From assembly GCA_902518705.1 (NCBI GenBank), contig CABYHW010000001.1, positions 50,270-114,269 of the forward strand: a DNA stretch of 64,000 nucleotides. Reading direction: 5' to 3'. A model generated the notes under the pieces. That model was given only the letters and a program-made list of their open reading frames with translations, had not been told where the DNA came from and did no database searches. This document shows positions 28,303 to 38,259 of the stretch, piece after piece. Each line of letters opens with the position of its first letter. The stretch's first letter is position 1. The DNA is from an uncultured Alphaproteobacteria bacterium (GTDB lineage: Bacteria; Pseudomonadota; Alphaproteobacteria; HIMB59; GCA-002718135). Both the position numbers and the translations under genes were made by a program.

Positions 28303-29115
28303 ATGAAATTTGAAAGTAATAAAAAATTTTACCGCACAATTTGCATTTCGGATACCCACCTAGGAACCAGTGGTTGTAAAAGCAAAATGCTTTTAGAATT
28401 CTTAGAAGAAACAGATTCGGAATATTTATTTTTAGTAGGCGACATTGTTGATGGATGGCGCATGCGTAAGAAAATGTATTGGCCACAAGAACATAACGAC
28501 GTGGTTCAAAAAGTTTTAAAGAAAGCGAAAAATGGAACTAAGGTAGTGCTTATCCCAGGAAATCATGATGAAGTATTAAAAGATTTTACAAATTTTTCCT
28601 TTGGAGAAATTTCAATAAAAAATGAAGATACGCATCAATTAGCTGATGGAAGGAAAGTGCTGATTACACACGGAGATGAATTTGATGCTGTGATCATTAA
28701 TGCGAGGTGGTTAGCCAAAGTGGGATCAGCACTTTATGAATATTTACTAAAGTTAAATAATGTATTCAATTTTATTCGACGAAAGATGGGCTTGTCTTAT
28801 TGGTCACTGTCTCAATATTTAAAAAAGAAAACTAAGCATGCAACAAACTTTATTAGTAATTTTGAGTTTGCTGTATCTGACAGAGCTAGAAGAGAAAATG
28901 CCGATGTTGTTGTGTGCGGGCATATACATAGACCAGAAATAAAGGAATTAAATGGTGTTCTCTATTGTAATGATGGTGACTGGATTGAAAGTTGCACAGC
29001 ACTCGTTGAAGATGAAATTGGCAATTTATCAATTCTTAATTGGCCCGAAGAAAGAGAAAAATTAAAATTAATTTCTTTAGAAGAAAGACGAAAAATAAAA
29101 GAGGATGCAGCCTAA
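28303..29115 (+). CDS. plcP: Calcineurin-like metallophosphoesterase, PlcP-like (LpxH-related)
   Basis: ISDTHLGTSGCKSKMLLEFLEETDSEYLFLVGDIVDGWRM, IPGNHDEVL, THGDEFDAVI, VCGHIHRPEI; overlaps a GT4 glycosyltransferase as in known plcP-agt pairs. Confidence 0.82.
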   Translation: MKFESNKKFYRTICISDTHLGTSGCKSKMLLEFLEETDSEYLFLVGDIVDGWRMRKKMYWPQEHNDVVQKVLKKAKNGTKVVLIPGNHDEVLKDFTNFSFGEISIKNEDTHQLADGRKVLITHGDEFDAVIINARWLAKVGSALYEYLLKLNNVFNFIRRKMGLSYWSLSQYLKKKTKHATNFISNFEFAVSDRARRENADVVVCGHIHRPEIKELNGVLYCNDGDWIESCTALVEDEIGNLSILNWPEEREKLKLISLEERRKIKEDAA

Positions 29116-32236: not shown

Positions 32237-34336
32237 ATGTTAAAAAAAAATACCACTTATAACTATGCAAACAGGGAATTGTCTTGGCTAAAATTCAATG
32301 AAAGAGTCTTAAGTCAGACATCTGATAGTAAAATTCCACTTTTAGAAAGGGTTAGATTTTTATCAATAGCATTCTCTAATTTAGATGAATTTTTTATGGT
32401 TAGAGTAGCAGGATTGAATGTTCAAAAATTTTCACGAAATAAAAGTTTTGATGGATTAACACCACAACAACAACTCAAGCTGATAGATAAAGAAACATCG
32501 AAGATGATTTCAAATATAAAATCAATATGGATAGATTTACTAAGAGAGCTTTCAGAAAACAAAATCCATATAGATGTAGAAAAAACACTGAAAACAAAAG
32601 ATAAAACATTTATTAAAAATTATTTAGAAGAAAATAATTGGGGGGTTTTAACGCCAATTATTATTGATCCATCTCACCCATTTCCTTTTATACCAAATAA
32701 AGAAACAACCTTAGTATGTCGTTTAATGAATAATAAAAAAACTTTTTATGGAATACTAAGAGTGCCAGAGGGATTAGAAAAATTTATTAAATTACCTGGT
32801 AAAAAAACACGTTTTGTATCTATGGAGACAGCCCTACTTATTTCTTTAAAAGAAATTTTCCAGTGTGATAGGGTTTTGGATAAAGGTATTTTTAGACCAA
32901 TTAGGAATAGTGAATTAGAATTAGGGGGTGAAGGAGAAGATTTATTTTTAGTATTTCAAAAAGCTATTTTTGAGAGAAGAAGACAAGAGGTAATAAGAAT
33001 TGATTTTGATGAAAGTATATCTAGTCACTTAATTAAATTCATAAATAAAAAACTTAACTATAAGGATGTAAATACATATAAACTGCCAATACCCGTTAAT
33101 CTTTCGAGTATAGAGTCAATTTTTTTGAAAGATTTTAAAAAATTATTTTTTCCAAAATTTAAGGTACGATTTCCTGAAAGAATTAAAGATTTTAAAAATG
33201 ATTATTTTAAAGCTATAGCAAATAAAGATATTGTTATTCATCACCCTTTTGAATCTTTTGAAGTAGTGACGCAGTTTATTGATCAAGCTGCAGATGATCC
33301 AAAAGTCTTATCAATAAAACATACTTTATACCGAACTACTGATGACTCACCAATAGAAGCAGGTTTAGTTAGAGCAGCACAAAAAGGAAAATTAGTAACT
33401 GTCATTATAGAGTTGCAAGCACGTTTTGATGAAGAGCGTAACTTAAAATGGGCAAAAGAATTAGAATTAGCTGGAGCGCAAGTTGTTTTTGGCAATATTG
33501 ATATGAAAACTCATGCAAAAATTACACTTGTAACAAGAAAGCAAATGAATTCTGTTGTAAATTACGCACATTATGGAACAGGTAATTATCACCCGAGAAA
33601 TGCAAGAGTTTATATGGATTTATCTTACTTCACCTGTGACAAAACATTAACAAATGATGCTGCAAAAATGTTTAATTATTTAACTAGTTATTCTGAACCA
33701 ACAACAATAAAAAAAATAGTATATTCTCCAATAACTGCAAGAAACAAATTAAATGAACTAATTAGAAATGAAATTACAAATGCTGGAAAAAATAAACCAT
33801 CTGGAATAGTATGTAAGTGTAATGCTCTTGTTGATAAACAAATTATTGATGAATTTTATAAAGCATCTCAAAAAAATGTAAAAATTGAATTGTTGATAAG
33901 AGGAATTTGCTCTCTAATACCTGGTAAAGAAAATCTATCAGAAAATATAGTTGTTAAAAGCATAATTGGTCGTTTTTTAGAACATACGAGAATATATTGT
34001 TTTTATAATGGTCATAAATTCCCTCATAGAAAAAATATCTTGTTTATTTCTTCTGCCGATTTAATGCAAAGAAATCTAGATAGGCGGGTTGAAACATTTA
34101 TTCCTATTGAAAATGAAACTGTACATGAACAAATATTAAATCAGATCTTAATTGCCAGTATGACAGATAATACAAATTCTTGGCAAATGTTAAGTAATGG
34201 CAATTATCAGAAAAAAGAAATATCAAGCAAAGAGAAAAAATTTTCCTCTCACAATTTTTTTATCAAAAATCCAAGCTTGTCTGGGAGGGGTTCAGCAAAA
34301 CTCAAATCTAGAGCTAAGTCTAATTTAAAAATTTGA
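32237..34336 (+). CDS. ppk: Polyphosphate kinase 1
   Basis: 699 aa, NRELSWLKFNERVL; ITLVTRKQ...YAHYGTGNYHPRNARVYMDLS; RGICSLIPG. Confidence 0.97.
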   Translation: MLKKNTTYNYANRELSWLKFNERVLSQTSDSKIPLLERVRFLSIAFSNLDEFFMVRVAGLNVQKFSRNKSFDGLTPQQQLKLIDKETSKMISNIKSIWIDLLRELSENKIHIDVEKTLKTKDKTFIKNYLEENNWGVLTPIIIDPSHPFPFIPNKETTLVCRLMNNKKTFYGILRVPEGLEKFIKLPGKKTRFVSMETALLISLKEIFQCDRVLDKGIFRPIRNSELELGGEGEDLFLVFQKAIFERRRQEVIRIDFDESISSHLIKFINKKLNYKDVNTYKLPIPVNLSSIESIFLKDFKKLFFPKFKVRFPERIKDFKNDYFKAIANKDIVIHHPFESFEVVTQFIDQAADDPKVLSIKHTLYRTTDDSPIEAGLVRAAQKGKLVTVIIELQARFDEERNLKWAKELELAGAQVVFGNIDMKTHAKITLVTRKQMNSVVNYAHYGTGNYHPRNARVYMDLSYFTCDKTLTNDAAKMFNYLTSYSEPTTIKKIVYSPITARNKLNELIRNEITNAGKNKPSGIVCKCNALVDKQIIDEFYKASQKNVKIELLIRGICSLIPGKENLSENIVVKSIIGRFLEHTRIYCFYNGHKFPHRKNILFISSADLMQRNLDRRVETFIPIENETVHEQILNQILIASMTDNTNSWQMLSNGNYQKKEISSKEKKFSSHNFFIKNPSLSGRGSAKLKSRAKSNLKI

Positions 34337-34345
34337 AAATAGAAT

Positions 34346-34540
34346 TTAATCCCACTCACAACAATTGGACATAGCAGGAAGAAATAATATTGTGAGTGGT
34401 AAAGAGTATTTAAATTTTATTTTTTACAGACGTGTTAATAGAATATTAAGTTTTTATAAATTAAACTTATTTTTAAATTTATTAGTTTTCAAATAAATTT
34501 TTTAGTTCTTTCAATTTAATAAAAATTAAGTCTCTTACTT
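34346..34540. repeat. Direct repeat copy A (~190 bp): hairpin element + relic of arsC 3' end
   Basis: Aligns end-to-end with 37356-37551; shared blocks CCCACTCACA, AGCAGGA(A/G)GAAAT, GTGAGTGGTAA, TTTAAATTTTATT, GAATATTAA(G/A)TTTTTATAAA, CAAATAAATTTTTTAGTTCTTTCAATTTA, TCTCTTACTT. Confidence 0.93.
34352..34399. other. Hairpin: CCACTCACAA / TTGTGAGTGG, 28-nt loop (copy A)
   Basis: Perfect 10-bp inverted repeat. Confidence 0.75.
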
Positions 34541-34541
34541 T
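34482..34541 (-). pseudogene. Relic of arsC C-terminus (VRDLIFIKLKELKNLFEN*)
   Basis: In-frame match to the intact arsC tail VRDSIFDKLKELKNLFEN* encoded at 37493-37551. Confidence 0.85.
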
Positions 34542-34562
34542 TTAGTAACTATAATTTTAAAA

Positions 34563-35558
34563 TTAATTTTTTGCATTTACAATATTTGATAGAAATTGAT
34601 TTGCACATTTATCCCAAGTAAATTGCATTGCAAATTTTCTACAATCATTTCTATCAATCTTTAAAGCTTTTTTAAGTGATTTTTCAATATTGTTATCAAG
34701 GGTGTCAATTACTGTGTTTTTTAAAATATCTATAGGACCTGTTACTGGATATGCTGCCACTGGTGTGCCAGATGCTAATGACTCTAAAATTACATTTCCA
34801 AATGTATCTGTTTTAGATGGGAATACCAAGGTTTCAGCATTTGCATAATATTTTGCTAAGTCTTGACCTTTTTTCATACCTACAAAAGAAACGTAAGGAT
34901 ATTTCTTTTGTAATCGTTGTTTTTCTGGACCATCTCCAACAACAATTTTATCCATTTTGGTTTTAATTTCTAGGAATGCTTCAATATTTTTTTCTAGAGC
35001 AACTCTACCGATGTAAACAATGTACTTTTTCATTCCTTTTCTTCTTTTTAAAGGATGAAATAATTCAGTATTAACACCTCTTGACCAAATTTTAAGATTT
35101 TGAAATTGATATTTCGTTAATTCGTCACGCATAGATACTGTTGGGACCAATACATTGCATGCATTTTTATGAAAATTTTTTAAAAATGAATACCCAATTA
35201 TTTTTGGTATCATTATTCTTTGCTCTAAATATTCTGGAAATCTCGTATGAAAAGAGGTTGTATATCTCAACTTATTATTCTCACAAAATTTTTTCCCCGC
35301 TATTCCAACTGGTCCTTCAGTAGCGATATGTATAAAATCTGGATCAAAATTATTAAAAAAATTTTCTGTTATTTTTTTTGTATTAATTGCTAGTTTTATT
35401 TCTTTATACCAGGGATAGCTAAAATTAGTAAACATCATTGGGTGAAGTATGTCTATTTCATTCTTTTCTTTTAAAAATGGATTAATATGTTGATATGTAT
35501 TTACCACACCATTAACTTGGGGAAGCCAAGCATCGGTAATGATTGCTAATTTTTTCAC
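34563..35558 (-). CDS. agt: GT4 glycosyltransferase, second Agt-like paralogue
   Basis: Closely similar throughout to 29105-30106 (DAWLPQVNGVV..., VFPSKTDTFGNVILESLASGTPVAAYPVTGPIDIL). Confidence 0.82.
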   Translation of the reverse strand: MKKLAIITDAWLPQVNGVVNTYQHINPFLKEKNEIDILHPMMFTNFSYPWYKEIKLAINTKKITENFFNNFDPDFIHIATEGPVGIAGKKFCENNKLRYTTSFHTRFPEYLEQRIMIPKIIGYSFLKNFHKNACNVLVPTVSMRDELTKYQFQNLKIWSRGVNTELFHPLKRRKGMKKYIVYIGRVALEKNIEAFLEIKTKMDKIVVGDGPEKQRLQKKYPYVSFVGMKKGQDLAKYYANAETLVFPSKTDTFGNVILESLASGTPVAAYPVTGPIDILKNTVIDTLDNNIEKSLKKALKIDRNDCRKFAMQFTWDKCANQFLSNIVNAKN

Positions 35559-36361
35559 ACTGCTACACTTTCTGGTATTTTGTTATATTTGTTGTGAAAA
35601 ATTTTTTCTCTTTCAATCGACCAGTCAATAAGAGATAATTGTCCCTCTTTATTTTCCACTAGCGCAGAACAACTCTCAACCCAATCACCATCATTGCAAT
35701 ATAACACTCCATTTAATTTTTTTATAACGGGCTTATGAATATGGCCGCAAACAACAACATCGGCATTTACTCTTTTAGCACTATCAGATACGGCAAACTC
35801 AAAGTTAGAAATAAAATTCGTGGCTCTTTTTGTTTGATGTTTGAGAAATTGAGATAATGACCAATAAGATAAACCTAGTTTTCTTCTGACAAAATTTAGA
35901 TAGTTATTCAACTTTAATATAAATTCGTATAGGGATGACCCAATACTTGCCAGCCATTTAGCGTTTAATATAACTGCATCAAATTCATCACCATGTAAAA
36001 CAAGGGCTTTTCTCCCATCAGCTAATTTGTGTGTAAACTTATTTTTTATTGATATATTCCCTAGTGAAAAACTTGTGTAACTTTTTACTAGTTCGTCATG
36101 ATTACCTGGGATAAATATTACTTTTGTGCCTTTTCTTGCTTTACGCAAAATCTTCTGGATAATGTCATTATGAGTTTGATGCCAATAAATTTTTTTTTTC
36201 ATTCTCCATGCATCAATAATATCGCCAACTAAAAATAAATATTTTGAATCTGTTGATCTCAAAAATTCAAGAAGCATTTCACTCTTGCTATTTTCTGTTC
36301 CAAGATGAAGATCAGATATCCATATAGTTCTATAATATGAAACTGATTGCTGATCTTTCAT
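35555..36361 (-). CDS. plcP: Calcineurin-like metallophosphoesterase, second PlcP-like paralogue
   Basis: Closely similar throughout to 28303-29115 (ISDLHLGTENSKSEMLLEFLRSTDSKYLFLVGDIIDAWRM). Confidence 0.82.
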   Translation of the reverse strand: MKDQQSVSYYRTIWISDLHLGTENSKSEMLLEFLRSTDSKYLFLVGDIIDAWRMKKKIYWHQTHNDIIQKILRKARKGTKVIFIPGNHDELVKSYTSFSLGNISIKNKFTHKLADGRKALVLHGDEFDAVILNAKWLASIGSSLYEFILKLNNYLNFVRRKLGLSYWSLSQFLKHQTKRATNFISNFEFAVSDSAKRVNADVVVCGHIHKPVIKKLNGVLYCNDGDWVESCSALVENKEGQLSLIDWSIEREKIFHNKYNKIPESVAV

Positions 36362-36438
36362 TTTATTAATAAATAATAGAAAGAATTTGTTAAAATTTTA
36401 TTTCAATTACATTAACTAACTTTTTTTTTACAGAAGTA

Positions 36439-37281
36439 TTAATTAAATATTGAGTTTTTATTACTTGGATCTAATCTATAAGTGCTATTCCTTAAAAATT
36501 TTGTAATCTCAATAAGATTGCCAATTTCTTTTATGGTTTCAAAGGATATTCTTTGTCCAATATGAACATCAATTTTTTTTCCCATTCTTCTTTTAAGTTC
36601 ATATATCATTAAAGAATATCGAAAGACTTGCCCAATTTTATCAGCAACATGAAAAAGTTCGCTATTTTGTCCTTCAAAAAAAATTGGGAGGACAGGTGAT
36701 TGAGTTTTCATTATTATTTTTGAAGTAAATTGTTTCCATTCACGATCTATTGCTTTGATTCCTTTTTTTAATTTTGGTTTCGTTGAAACTGATCCTGATG
36801 GAAAAATGATTAGTGCCCCATTATTTCTTAAGTGTTCTTCGCATTCTTTACGTGCAGCGATATTATTTATTAAAGCATTTCTATTTTTTGAAAAATCAAG
36901 AGGAATAATTTTATTCTTAATAAGATCTGCTCCTTGTAAAACTTTATGCGTAATAATTTTGTAATCTTGTCTAATTTTACTAATTAAAGAGCATATTGTA
37001 AGACCATCAGCTATTCCAAATGCATGGTTAGCGATTACGACAAGTTTGCCATTTTTAGGAATATTACTTTTAGAATGATAATGTGTCTGAATACGGAGAC
37101 CTAATCTTTCAATTGCATCATGCCAAAAATTCTCTGGAGGTAAATTTTCTCTTAAATAATCCTCATACAACTTACGTAACTTAATTTTACCCGTTCCCAA
37201 TTCGGTTAATTGAATAATAATCTTTCCAACAGGATTAACTTCGGAGTTAGAAAAGGTAAGCGCTGGTTTATTAATTTTCAT
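36439..37281 (-). CDS. PlsC-like lysophospholipid / lyso-ornithine-lipid type acyltransferase
   Basis: VIANHAFGIADG (NHx4D), LIIFPSGSVSTKP motif; same strand as plcP2-agt2. Confidence 0.8.
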   Translation of the reverse strand: MKINKPALTFSNSEVNPVGKIIIQLTELGTGKIKLRKLYEDYLRENLPPENFWHDAIERLGLRIQTHYHSKSNIPKNGKLVVIANHAFGIADGLTICSLISKIRQDYKIITHKVLQGADLIKNKIIPLDFSKNRNALINNIAARKECEEHLRNNGALIIFPSGSVSTKPKLKKGIKAIDREWKQFTSKIIMKTQSPVLPIFFEGQNSELFHVADKIGQVFRYSLMIYELKRRMGKKIDVHIGQRISFETIKEIGNLIEITKFLRNSTYRLDPSNKNSIFN

Positions 37282-37312
37282 AAAATTTACTTTAAATTCT
37301 TAATTTTATAAT

Positions 37313-37330
37313 GTTAAACAATTGTTAAAG
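37313..37330 (-). promoter_or_regulatory. Pho-box-like site upstream of acyltransferase-plcP2-agt2
   Basis: Minus strand CTTTAAC-AATT-GTTTAAC, degenerate 7-4-7 repeat ~32 bp before the start. Confidence 0.35.
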
Positions 37331-37355
37331 TACTCGAAAAAGGAGAAATAAAAAA

Positions 37356-37551
37356 TTAATCCCACTCACAATTATTGGTAATTAGCAGGAGGAAATACTA
37401 CTGTGAGTGGTAAGAAACATTTAAATTTTATTGTTTACAAATAGATTAATGGAATATTAAATTTTTATAAATTTAATTAATTTTTAACTTCATTAATTCT
37501 CAAATAAATTTTTTAGTTCTTTCAATTTATCAAAAATTGAATCTCTTACTT
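37356..37551. repeat. Direct repeat copy B (~190 bp): hairpin element + arsC 3' end
   Basis: See copy A at 34346-34540. Confidence 0.93.
37362..37410. other. Hairpin: CCACTCACA / TGTGAGTGG (copy B)
   Basis: Perfect 9-bp inverted repeat; loop shares the AGCAGGAGGAAAT block with copy A. Confidence 0.75.
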
Positions 37552-37912
37552 CTCTAAATTTATCTAATTGGTTTGAACTAAAATGATCTGATGCCGGATC
37601 ATCAAATGGTATTGAAAATATCTGAGCTTTGGAATTTAAAACTGGACATACCTCTTCTTTACAAAGCGTAAAAACGGTATTTAATTCATCTCTAAATTTG
37701 TTGTCTAAGCTTTCAAAATCTTTTGAATAATGTTTTGATATATCAATATCGATTTCACCCATAACCTCGATAGCATTAGGATTAACTTCTTTGGGCACTG
37801 ATCCTGCACTTTGAATAATGCAATTAGGATATAATTTTTTTGCAATTCCTTCAGCCATTTGACTTCTTGCTGAATTAGCAACACACATAAAAAGAATATT
37901 TTTATTTTTCAT
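37493..37912 (-). CDS. arsC: Low-molecular-weight phosphatase / thioredoxin-type arsenate reductase (ArsC)
   Basis: ILFMCVANSARSQMAEGIAKKLYP (CX5R-S), VFTLCKEEVCPV. Confidence 0.88.
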   Translation of the reverse strand: MKNKNILFMCVANSARSQMAEGIAKKLYPNCIIQSAGSVPKEVNPNAIEVMGEIDIDISKHYSKDFESLDNKFRDELNTVFTLCKEEVCPVLNSKAQIFSIPFDDPASDHFSSNQLDKFREVRDSIFDKLKELKNLFEN

Positions 37913-38202: not shown

Positions 38203-38220
38203 TTGTAACAAAAATTTAAC
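38203..38220 (+). promoter_or_regulatory. Pho-box-like site upstream of DUF47-PiT operon
   Basis: TTGTAAC-AAAA-ATTTAAC, ~40 bp before the ATG at 38260. Confidence 0.5.
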
Positions 38221-38259
38221 ATTTCTTTCTTTTTTTTTGAAAAGTTCTATAAGCACGCC

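Follow-up and report, generated by a model that had tools for sequence, protein, structure and literature searches.

When DNA is deleted between direct repeats, one chimeric repeat is left behind, and a Campbell-type (single-crossover) insertion is flanked by duplicated gene 3' ends. We consider here how nutrient genes come and go, without the help of mobile elements, in abundant, streamlined ocean bacteria. A flexible phosphate island, fGIp-H, has been described by Molina-Pardines et al. 2023 (PMC10734472): according to the parts of that paper available to us, it contains ppk, ppx, SixA, GlpF, and paralogous "LpxH" and "RfaG" genes, and the set of genes differs between members of a species and follows phosphate. 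The same parts report no hallmarks at the island's boundaries; homologous recombination was inferred from its conserved position. In Prochlorococcus, patchy nutrient genes, such as those for nitrate assimilation, are explained by loss and homologous recombination in the available portion of PMC6370341.

The window (the whole 64,000-nucleotide stretch that we analyzed) comes from a 1.16-Mb genome of the GCA-002718135/AEGEAN-169 family, order HIMB59. In this family, ppk, ppx, sixA, glpF, and plcP/agt-like genes lie together at one place, which identifies it as fGIp-H, and the locus that we describe, between arsC and ppk, is inside this island. We compared the architecture of 51 loci from the genus and family, all of them from single-cell (MDA) assemblies; 49 comparable relatives were used to count the forms. 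One relative (L147) is AG-891-K05, the reference genome of Molina-Pardines et al. 2023. The features of the locus in the window are as follows.

32237-34336, forward strand: ppk (polyphosphate kinase), which converges on the cassette and whose 3' end gave rise to a relic in longer relatives
34346-34540, reverse strand: left (ppk-side, "P-type") repeat, with a relic and a hairpin; found by alignment and BLAST
34352-34399, no strand: hairpin of the left repeat, from the exact pattern and folding
34482-34540, reverse strand: relic of the arsC 3' end (VRDLIFIKLKELKNLFEN*), with its frame intact in 8 of 31 cassette genomes and broken in 23
34563-35558, reverse strand: agt2, a GT4 glycosyltransferase (predicted glycolipid synthesis; Pfam PF13692/PF00534)
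35555-36361, reverse strand: plcP2, a calcineurin-like phosphoesterase of the PlcP kind (predicted removal of phospholipid head groups; Pfam PF00149, E = 3e-12)
36362-36438, reverse strand: deletion junction, from comparison with longer relatives, which have about 1.8 kb here with a 470-amino-acid gene and a relic of the ppk 3' end
36421-36481, reverse strand: third, partial repeat copy (family D2), covering the last acyltransferase codons and the 3' flank, without the arsC tail or the hairpin
36439-37281, reverse strand: O-acyltransferase that resembles GlsA and the N-terminal half of OlsF (aminolipid synthesis; Pfam PF19576, E = 8.5e-16)
37312-37329, reverse strand: candidate Pho-box-like site, TTTAACA-N4-TTTAACA, upstream of the acyltransferase; the only exact match in the genome
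37356-37551, reverse strand: right (arsC-side, "A-type") repeat, with the arsC 3' end, an AT-rich stretch, and a hairpin
37362-37410, no strand: hairpin of the right repeat, CCACTCACA...TGTGAGTGG, with a loop of about 30 nt, from the exact pattern and folding
37493-37912, reverse strand: arsC (arsenate reductase, LMW-phosphatase family), whose last 18 codons are the start of the right repeat

A preliminary description of this DNA had proposed, by eye, that the two repeats align over their whole length. A global alignment bears this out: 165 of 196 columns are identical (84.2%), with one 1-bp gap, and the similarity begins at arsC codon -18, continues across the AT-rich stretch and the hairpin, and ends about 10 bp before the ppk stop, so the homology reaches beyond the hairpin. 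In a BLAST search against the window's own genome, the pair matched with E = 7e-56, no third full copy was found in the 1.16 Mb, and the next matches (E of at least 1.7e-5) were short and AT-rich. The third, partial copy scored 54 in local alignment in the window and 63 in longer relatives, against a background maximum of 36 across 3174 windows. As first described, the right copy holds the real end of arsC, and the left copy, on the minus strand, reads VRDLIFIKLKELKNLFEN* with no arsC body attached. Among the 31 cassette genomes, the window's included, 23 have lost the frame or the stop of this relic. An alignment of all repeat copies also showed that the junction between agt2 and the relic is identical in every cassette genome.

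The hairpin has a folding energy of -14 to -16 kcal/mol, and its exact pattern occurs at two places in the window's genome. We rejected the idea that it is a dispersed element, because it reaches at most two copies per genome and only 50 of 162 genomes from the order have it. Rfam gave no RNA family at the repeats; two weak matches in the region were due to chance.

Among the genes of the cassette, plcP2 is followed by agt2, a metallophosphoesterase and a GT4 glycosyltransferase in one operon with a 4-bp overlap. The acyltransferase matched positions 52-271 of the NCBIfam model for OlsF (E = 2e-41) and the model for GlsA (E = 5e-25), both under the curated cut-offs, and no Acetyltransf_5 partner for it was found among the contigs of this 71%-complete genome. 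The neighboring arsC matched Pfam PF01451 (E = 7e-14) and the NCBIfam arsC pI258 family (E = 1e-26, under the curated cut-off). Judging from these families, the most likely role of the cassette genes is to replace phospholipids by glycolipids, and possibly by aminolipids as well, under phosphorus stress. Gain and loss of the cassette would therefore tune cells to the phosphate supply. The Pho-box-like site is only a candidate, because overall counts of the pattern in the genome are no higher than chance.

Both forms of the locus coexist among the relatives: 30 of the 49 have two repeats and the cassette, while 17 have a single repeat (arsC-repeat-ppk). The other two have the acyltransferase only. 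In the outgroup genomes L149 and L157, the order is arsC-repeat-acyltransferase-ppk, with no plcP2-agt2. The two copies of the repeat, where present, are 3.0, 4.8, or 9.1 kb apart; a ugp-bearing form also occurs, and the longest form is that of L154. Six longer loci have a relic of the ppk 3' end upstream of plcP2 (57-63 bp, 84-93%), to the left of plcP2 and the counterpart of the arsC relic to the right of agt2. On this comparison, the window carries a trimmed composite cassette of 3 kb, a later deletion derivative of the longer forms.

The preliminary description had viewed the repeats as the fossil of a duplication or recombination, and this holds for the two arsC tails with their hairpins, of which the left one is a decaying relic. 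It does not hold for a duplication that placed all three genes, nor for the gain of the three genes as one unit, because the outgroups have the acyltransferase without plcP2-agt2. Instead of the arsC tail, the whole arsC/ppk interval appears to have been duplicated with plcP2-agt2, as relics of both genes remain. No integrase was found in the window's form or in L154, and the preliminary description had seen neither a transposase nor an integrase.

We therefore favor, as probable on the sequence comparisons, a composite cassette in which plcP2-agt2 was gained by duplication of the interval, the result was trimmed, and the cassette can be lost by homologous recombination between the repeats. 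First, judging from the outgroups, the acyltransferase would have been at the locus before plcP2-agt2, together with the 470-amino-acid gene, between the arsC repeat and ppk. Second, plcP2-agt2, a lipid-remodeling pair originating in a different lineage of the family, would have entered once. Relics of the ppk tail and the arsC tail flank the pair, so its insertion probably duplicated the interval where arsC and ppk converge, which, as read from the junctions, extends roughly from arsC codon -18 to ppk codon -16; this would leave the ppk-tail relic to the left of plcP2-agt2 and the arsC-tail relic and a second repeat to the right. A homologous interval is indeed present on either side of the pair, in direct orientation, as after Campbell-type insertion of a circle. 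The route could have been integration of a circle bearing the interval or template switching during replication, either of which would give the same result. Third, as the comparison with longer relatives shows, deletion of the 470-amino-acid gene and the ppk relic produced the window's form. We also considered whether the arsC/ppk interval is a dedicated docking site for phosphorus-related modules, to which the acyltransferase, the 470-amino-acid gene, ugpBAEC, and plcP2-agt2 were added serially without an integrase, each round reusing the hairpin repeat as homology and leaving a copy; we regard this extension as unlikely.

The final step, loss of the cassette, had been suggested beforehand, and sequence scars in single-copy genomes show it. 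We found excision scars in 6 of the 17 single-repeat genomes (L115, L130, L135, L140, L142, and L144); L115 is AG-898-L16, and L130 is AG-913-B05. In five of them (E2; for example, L130), the repeat matches the arsC-side copy at 13 diagnostic sites and then the ppk-side copy at about 21; L130, L140, and L144 each have one switch from arsC side to ppk side, with 13 and then 21 sites and zero exceptions. The scar of L130 has no mismatches to a mosaic of the two repeats of L132, a cassette genome, but 13 mismatches to the best single parent. L135, L140, L142, and L144 have one mismatch each to the mosaic. The second type of scar is known from one cell (L115): it is a zero-mismatch mosaic, with 25 and then 9 sites, of repeats that co-occur in L112 and L116. 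The crossover points of the two types differ, one being in the AT tract and the other in the hairpin loop.

Carrier and empty genomes are nearly identical on both flanks of these scars. L130 and L132 differ at 11 bases in the 2.5 kb to the left of the scar and at 3 in the 2 kb to the right; in the same left stretch, L132 and the window have about 200 differences. The flanks of L115 are likewise close to L112 and L113. Thus, we observe empty sites whose one chimeric repeat joins both copies of a carrier genome, which is the product of deletion between direct repeats. On the evidence of these scars, the mechanism is ordinary homologous recombination between two repeats that are still 84% identical in the window. 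What remains after the loss is a single chimeric repeat between undamaged arsC and ppk genes, so the neighbors are not harmed. The same homology also permits the exchange of alleles between cells. The other eleven empty genomes (E1) have interspersed sites and four or more mismatches and fit either scar poorly; they look native, and the idea that they are simple excision products is unsupported.

Allelic exchange alone, in which a native empty allele crosses with a cassette allele within the repeat and yields a chimeric single repeat with no deletion between repeats, is an unlikely source of the scars. Allelic recombination among cells is heavy at this locus: in L136, the arsC flank is E1-like but the DNA is cassette-like from inside the repeat onward, and the right flank of L130 changes lineage about 2.2 kb from the scar. 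What looks like an excision scar could therefore stem from an empty allele, not yet seen, whose sequence resembles the ppk-side copy. However, the right half of the E2 scar carries derived ppk-side states (TTAACACG, CACAATATT, a one-base deletion in the loop, and AATTGT) that occur in no native-like empty genome, and it is identical to the left copy of L132 itself. L115 has the ppk-side state TTCCATTTTC.

We also asked about the source of plcP2-agt2. The genome has a second pair, plcP1 (28303-29115) and agt1, in the same island, 4 kb away and inverted, but a plain local duplication of this pair is very unlikely: plcP1 and plcP2 are just 70% identical, and agt1 and agt2 62% (protein), and the plcP tree places plcP2 with plcP of L149 and L157 (95/92), apart from plcP1. 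The placement of agt stays ambiguous.

A mobile island that integrates and excises site-specifically at the arsC 3' end, with the hairpin or the arsC tail as att and a recombinase encoded elsewhere, seems highly improbable. A gene 3' end duplicated around an insert does resemble att duplication, and the hairpin stem is strongly conserved and, in the window's genome, confined to the arsC/ppk locus. Against this, neither the window's form nor L154 encodes a recombinase, the two scars lack a fixed crossover core, the repeats are about 195 bp long and diverged, and at its other end the plcP2-agt2 insert has a ppk relic where an att copy would be expected. Carriage by phage was rejected because viral contigs contained no relative of plcP2 and no hairpin consensus (a looser hairpin pattern gave 71 matches).

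Finally, it is hardly credible that the left copy was retained as a functional RNA or peptide, so that the repeats say nothing about gain and loss: both copies preserve an intact or almost intact hairpin stem, which may act as a terminator for ppk, agt2, and arsC, but most cassette genomes have lost the frame or stop of the relic (23 of 31), single-copy genomes exist (17 of 49), and Rfam gave no match. A functional hairpin by itself may well exist and is compatible with the composite-cassette account.

Entry of the block can thus be read from the relics of both flanking genes, and its exit, with the neighbors unharmed, from chimeric repeats in sister cells. The repeats and scars are markers of a size suited to PCR or single reads, and therefore metagenomes from along phosphate gradients would allow a direct count of how often a phosphorus-saving trait is gained and lost.

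How does this locus compare with known systems? It belongs to the same island as fGIp-H and has the same genes: plcP and agt correspond to the genes named "LpxH" and "RfaG" in the available parts of PMC10734472. Those parts give no description for fGIp-H of the repeats, of either relic, of the empty and scarred forms, or of the ugp-bearing form; hallmarks are readable base by base here, where those parts reported none. The PlcP-Agt pairs of SAR11 and other marine bacteria (PMC4796936, PMC8231724) are likewise an adjacent metallophosphoesterase and GT4 glycosyltransferase; the difference is that two diverged predicted pairs occur in one genome here, one of which is polymorphic for presence or absence. 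As in Prochlorococcus, a nutrient block is lost within a species and homologous recombination occurs among close relatives, but a deletion scar bounded by repeats is not described in the available portion of PMC6370341, whereas here the crossover is readable in the DNA. Compared with textbook direct-repeat deletion and Campbell-type insertion, this locus is a natural, population-level case in a streamlined, uncultured marine bacterium.

As the preliminary description had claimed, two stretches of the window are repeats of each other: they are 84.2% identical when aligned (165 of 196 columns), with E = 7e-56 in a search of their own genome. The final 18 codons of arsC lie within the right copy, and the left copy has the same 18 codons as an arsC relic without a gene body, as had also been proposed. 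No third full copy was found in the genome (1.16 Mb searched). The features between and beside the repeats, with genes assigned by family match, are as follows:

34346-34540, left repeat, on the ppk side
agt2, GT4 glycosyltransferase
plcP2, PlcP-like phosphoesterase
36421-36481, partial third repeat copy, at the 3' end of the acyltransferase gene
acyltransferase, OlsF/GlsA-like O-acyltransferase
37356-37551, right repeat, on the arsC side
arsC, LMW phosphatase fold

The score of the partial copy is 54-63 and that of the background reaches 36 at most, which hints that the acyltransferase also entered with a repeat copy. Each full repeat has a hairpin, CCACTCACA...TGTGAGTGG, that occurs at only these two places in the genome; its stem is mostly retained in both copies, and it may be a terminator. 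The arsC frame or stop of the left copy is broken in 23 of 31 cassette genomes, so this copy is not a conserved peptide. In two genomes (L120 and L126), small segments within the ppk-side copy match the other repeat type or allele, which suggests gene conversion between copies or cells.

We used the arsC protein to retrieve relatives, which are single-cell genomes labelled "uncultured Alphaproteobacteria," and mapped the gene order of 51 related loci (L numbers). We could class 49 of these: 30 have two repeats and the cassette; 17 are empty, with arsC, a single repeat, and then ppk directly (an arsC-ppk gap of about 153 bp), and are the single-copy relatives that had been predicted; and two outgroup loci (L149 and L157) have arsC-repeat-acyltransferase-ppk. 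The unclassed loci are L156, which stops inside arsC, and L148, which has an aquaporin gene directly after arsC (L148:10417-11084); repeat, ppk, sixA, and ppx were not found there. A repeat search of 102 genomes from the genus, a set that overlaps the mapped loci, gave the same picture: 31 had two copies (3.0, 4.8, or 9.1 kb apart), 18 had one, and 53 had none.

Some of the empty loci carry scars of excision. When all repeat copies were aligned, those of cassette genomes split into an arsC-side type (A) and a ppk-side type (P). Five empty loci (L130, L135, L140, L142, and L144) have type A toward arsC and type P toward ppk. At the positions that differ between the A copy and the P copy (P23) of L132, three of them (L130, L140, and L144) have 13 A sites and then 21 P sites, with zero exceptions. 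L130 has 0 mismatches to the A/P mosaic and 13 to the best single parent, and the other four have one mismatch each to the mosaic; a control mosaic of P then A was no better than a single parent. L115 has 25 A sites and then 9 P sites, with 0 mismatches, and its parental types, A2 and P26/P27, co-occur in L116 and in L112. The crossover lies in the hairpin loop in L115 and in an AT tract in the five. On the arsC side, L130 and L132 have 11 differences in 2.5 kb, and on the ppk side they have 3 in 2 kb; the window and L132 have about 200 in the same arsC-side stretch. The flanks of L115 are similarly close to L112 and L113. The right-hand states of the five are absent from the outgroup and from native-like empty loci and are derived within the P lineage, so the scars descend from the two-copy form and are not ancestral. 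Judging from these chimeric single repeats and near-identical flanks (L130/L132; L115/L112 and L113), the cassette has been deleted by recombination between the repeats, as predicted, at least twice and at differing crossover points. The allele of the five afterwards spread by descent or allelic exchange (the far left flank of L144 differs).

The 11 native-like empty loci (L128, L129, L131, L133, L134, L137, L138, L139, L141, L143, and L145) fit the mosaic poorly: their sites are interspersed, with at least 4 mismatches. They have repeat states in common with the outgroup, and these cells may never have carried the cassette. L136 has an arsC flank like theirs and cassette DNA from inside the repeat onward, the pattern that uptake of the cassette by a native empty cell through homologous exchange would give. 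All three kinds of cell, those with the cassette, native-like empties, and scarred empties, occur on single-cell plate AG-893 alone.

The cassette itself was assembled in steps. Four loci (L146, L150, L151, and L159) have about 1.8 kb between acyltransferase and plcP2, and in these, L152, and L154, this stretch ends in a relic of the 3' end of ppk (57-63 bp, 84-93% identity). In L154, where we read the stretch in full, a 470-aa gene and a small terminator-like hairpin precede the relic. The product of this gene (L154:15902-17314) had no Pfam or NCBIfam match; it is acidic, glycine-rich, and predicted to be secreted, and by eye it resembles a beta-helix repeat protein. L154 also has ugpBAEC, a glycerol-3-phosphate transporter, between the arsC-side repeat and acyltransferase (L154:10554-14695), and L152 has a same-size insert at that position. 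In the outgroup loci, only the tail of the 470-aa gene remains, between acyltransferase and ppk. This gene order and the relics place plcP2-agt2 exactly between a copy of an outgroup-like locus that finishes with the ppk tail and a copy of an empty-like locus that starts with the arsC tail. The junction of agt2 with the arsC relic is identical in every cassette genome, so the insertion happened once. Entry could have been by single-crossover insertion of a circle bearing the interval or by template switching during replication; the data fit both. In the plcP tree, plcP2 groups with plcP of L149 and L157 (95/92), apart from the genome's own plcP1, so a different lineage of the family is its probable source; on this point the agt tree lacks resolution. 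The window's form is a deletion derivative that lost the 470-aa gene and the ppk relic. Thus, the earlier interpretation stands for the single-copy relatives and for loss by recombination, but not for gain as one 3-kb module: with ppk and arsC relics around plcP2-agt2 and acyltransferase already in the outgroup loci, a stepwise composite replaces it.

The stretch upstream of arsC is also variable, since L150-L154 and L159 lack pit and its PhoU-like partner (DUF47) between the dual-specificity phosphatase and DUF6552 genes. Two others have an additional 1 kb (L128:6907-7935) or 2.6 kb (L149:5287-7934) between the phosphatase gene and pit.

Passages in PMC8231724 and PMC4796936 describe how, in phosphate-starved marine bacteria, PlcP and Agt homologues swap phospholipids for glycolipids. 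The acyltransferase is most like aminolipid-synthesis enzymes, and no N-acyltransferase partner was found in its own genome (an incomplete assembly). TTTAACA-N4-TTTAACA occurs upstream of acyltransferase (37312-37329, exact) and upstream of the PhoU-like and pit genes (38204-38221, one mismatch); these are possible Pho boxes, although the pattern's genome-wide counts are at chance level. We infer that gain and loss of the cassette adjust cells to phosphate supply, which agrees with Molina-Pardines et al. 2023 (PMC10734472).

Overall, the underlying mechanism is ordinary homologous recombination, and the locus is a readable, markable case of it within an important uncultured group. L147 is AG-891-K05, the reference genome for family GCA-002718135 in Molina-Pardines et al. 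In its account of the region, that paper describes a flexible phosphate island (version H), states that the usual boundary hallmarks are lacking, and deduces homologous recombination from the conserved position. The paralogous "LpxH" and "RfaG" genes that it mentions there correspond to plcP and agt of this locus.
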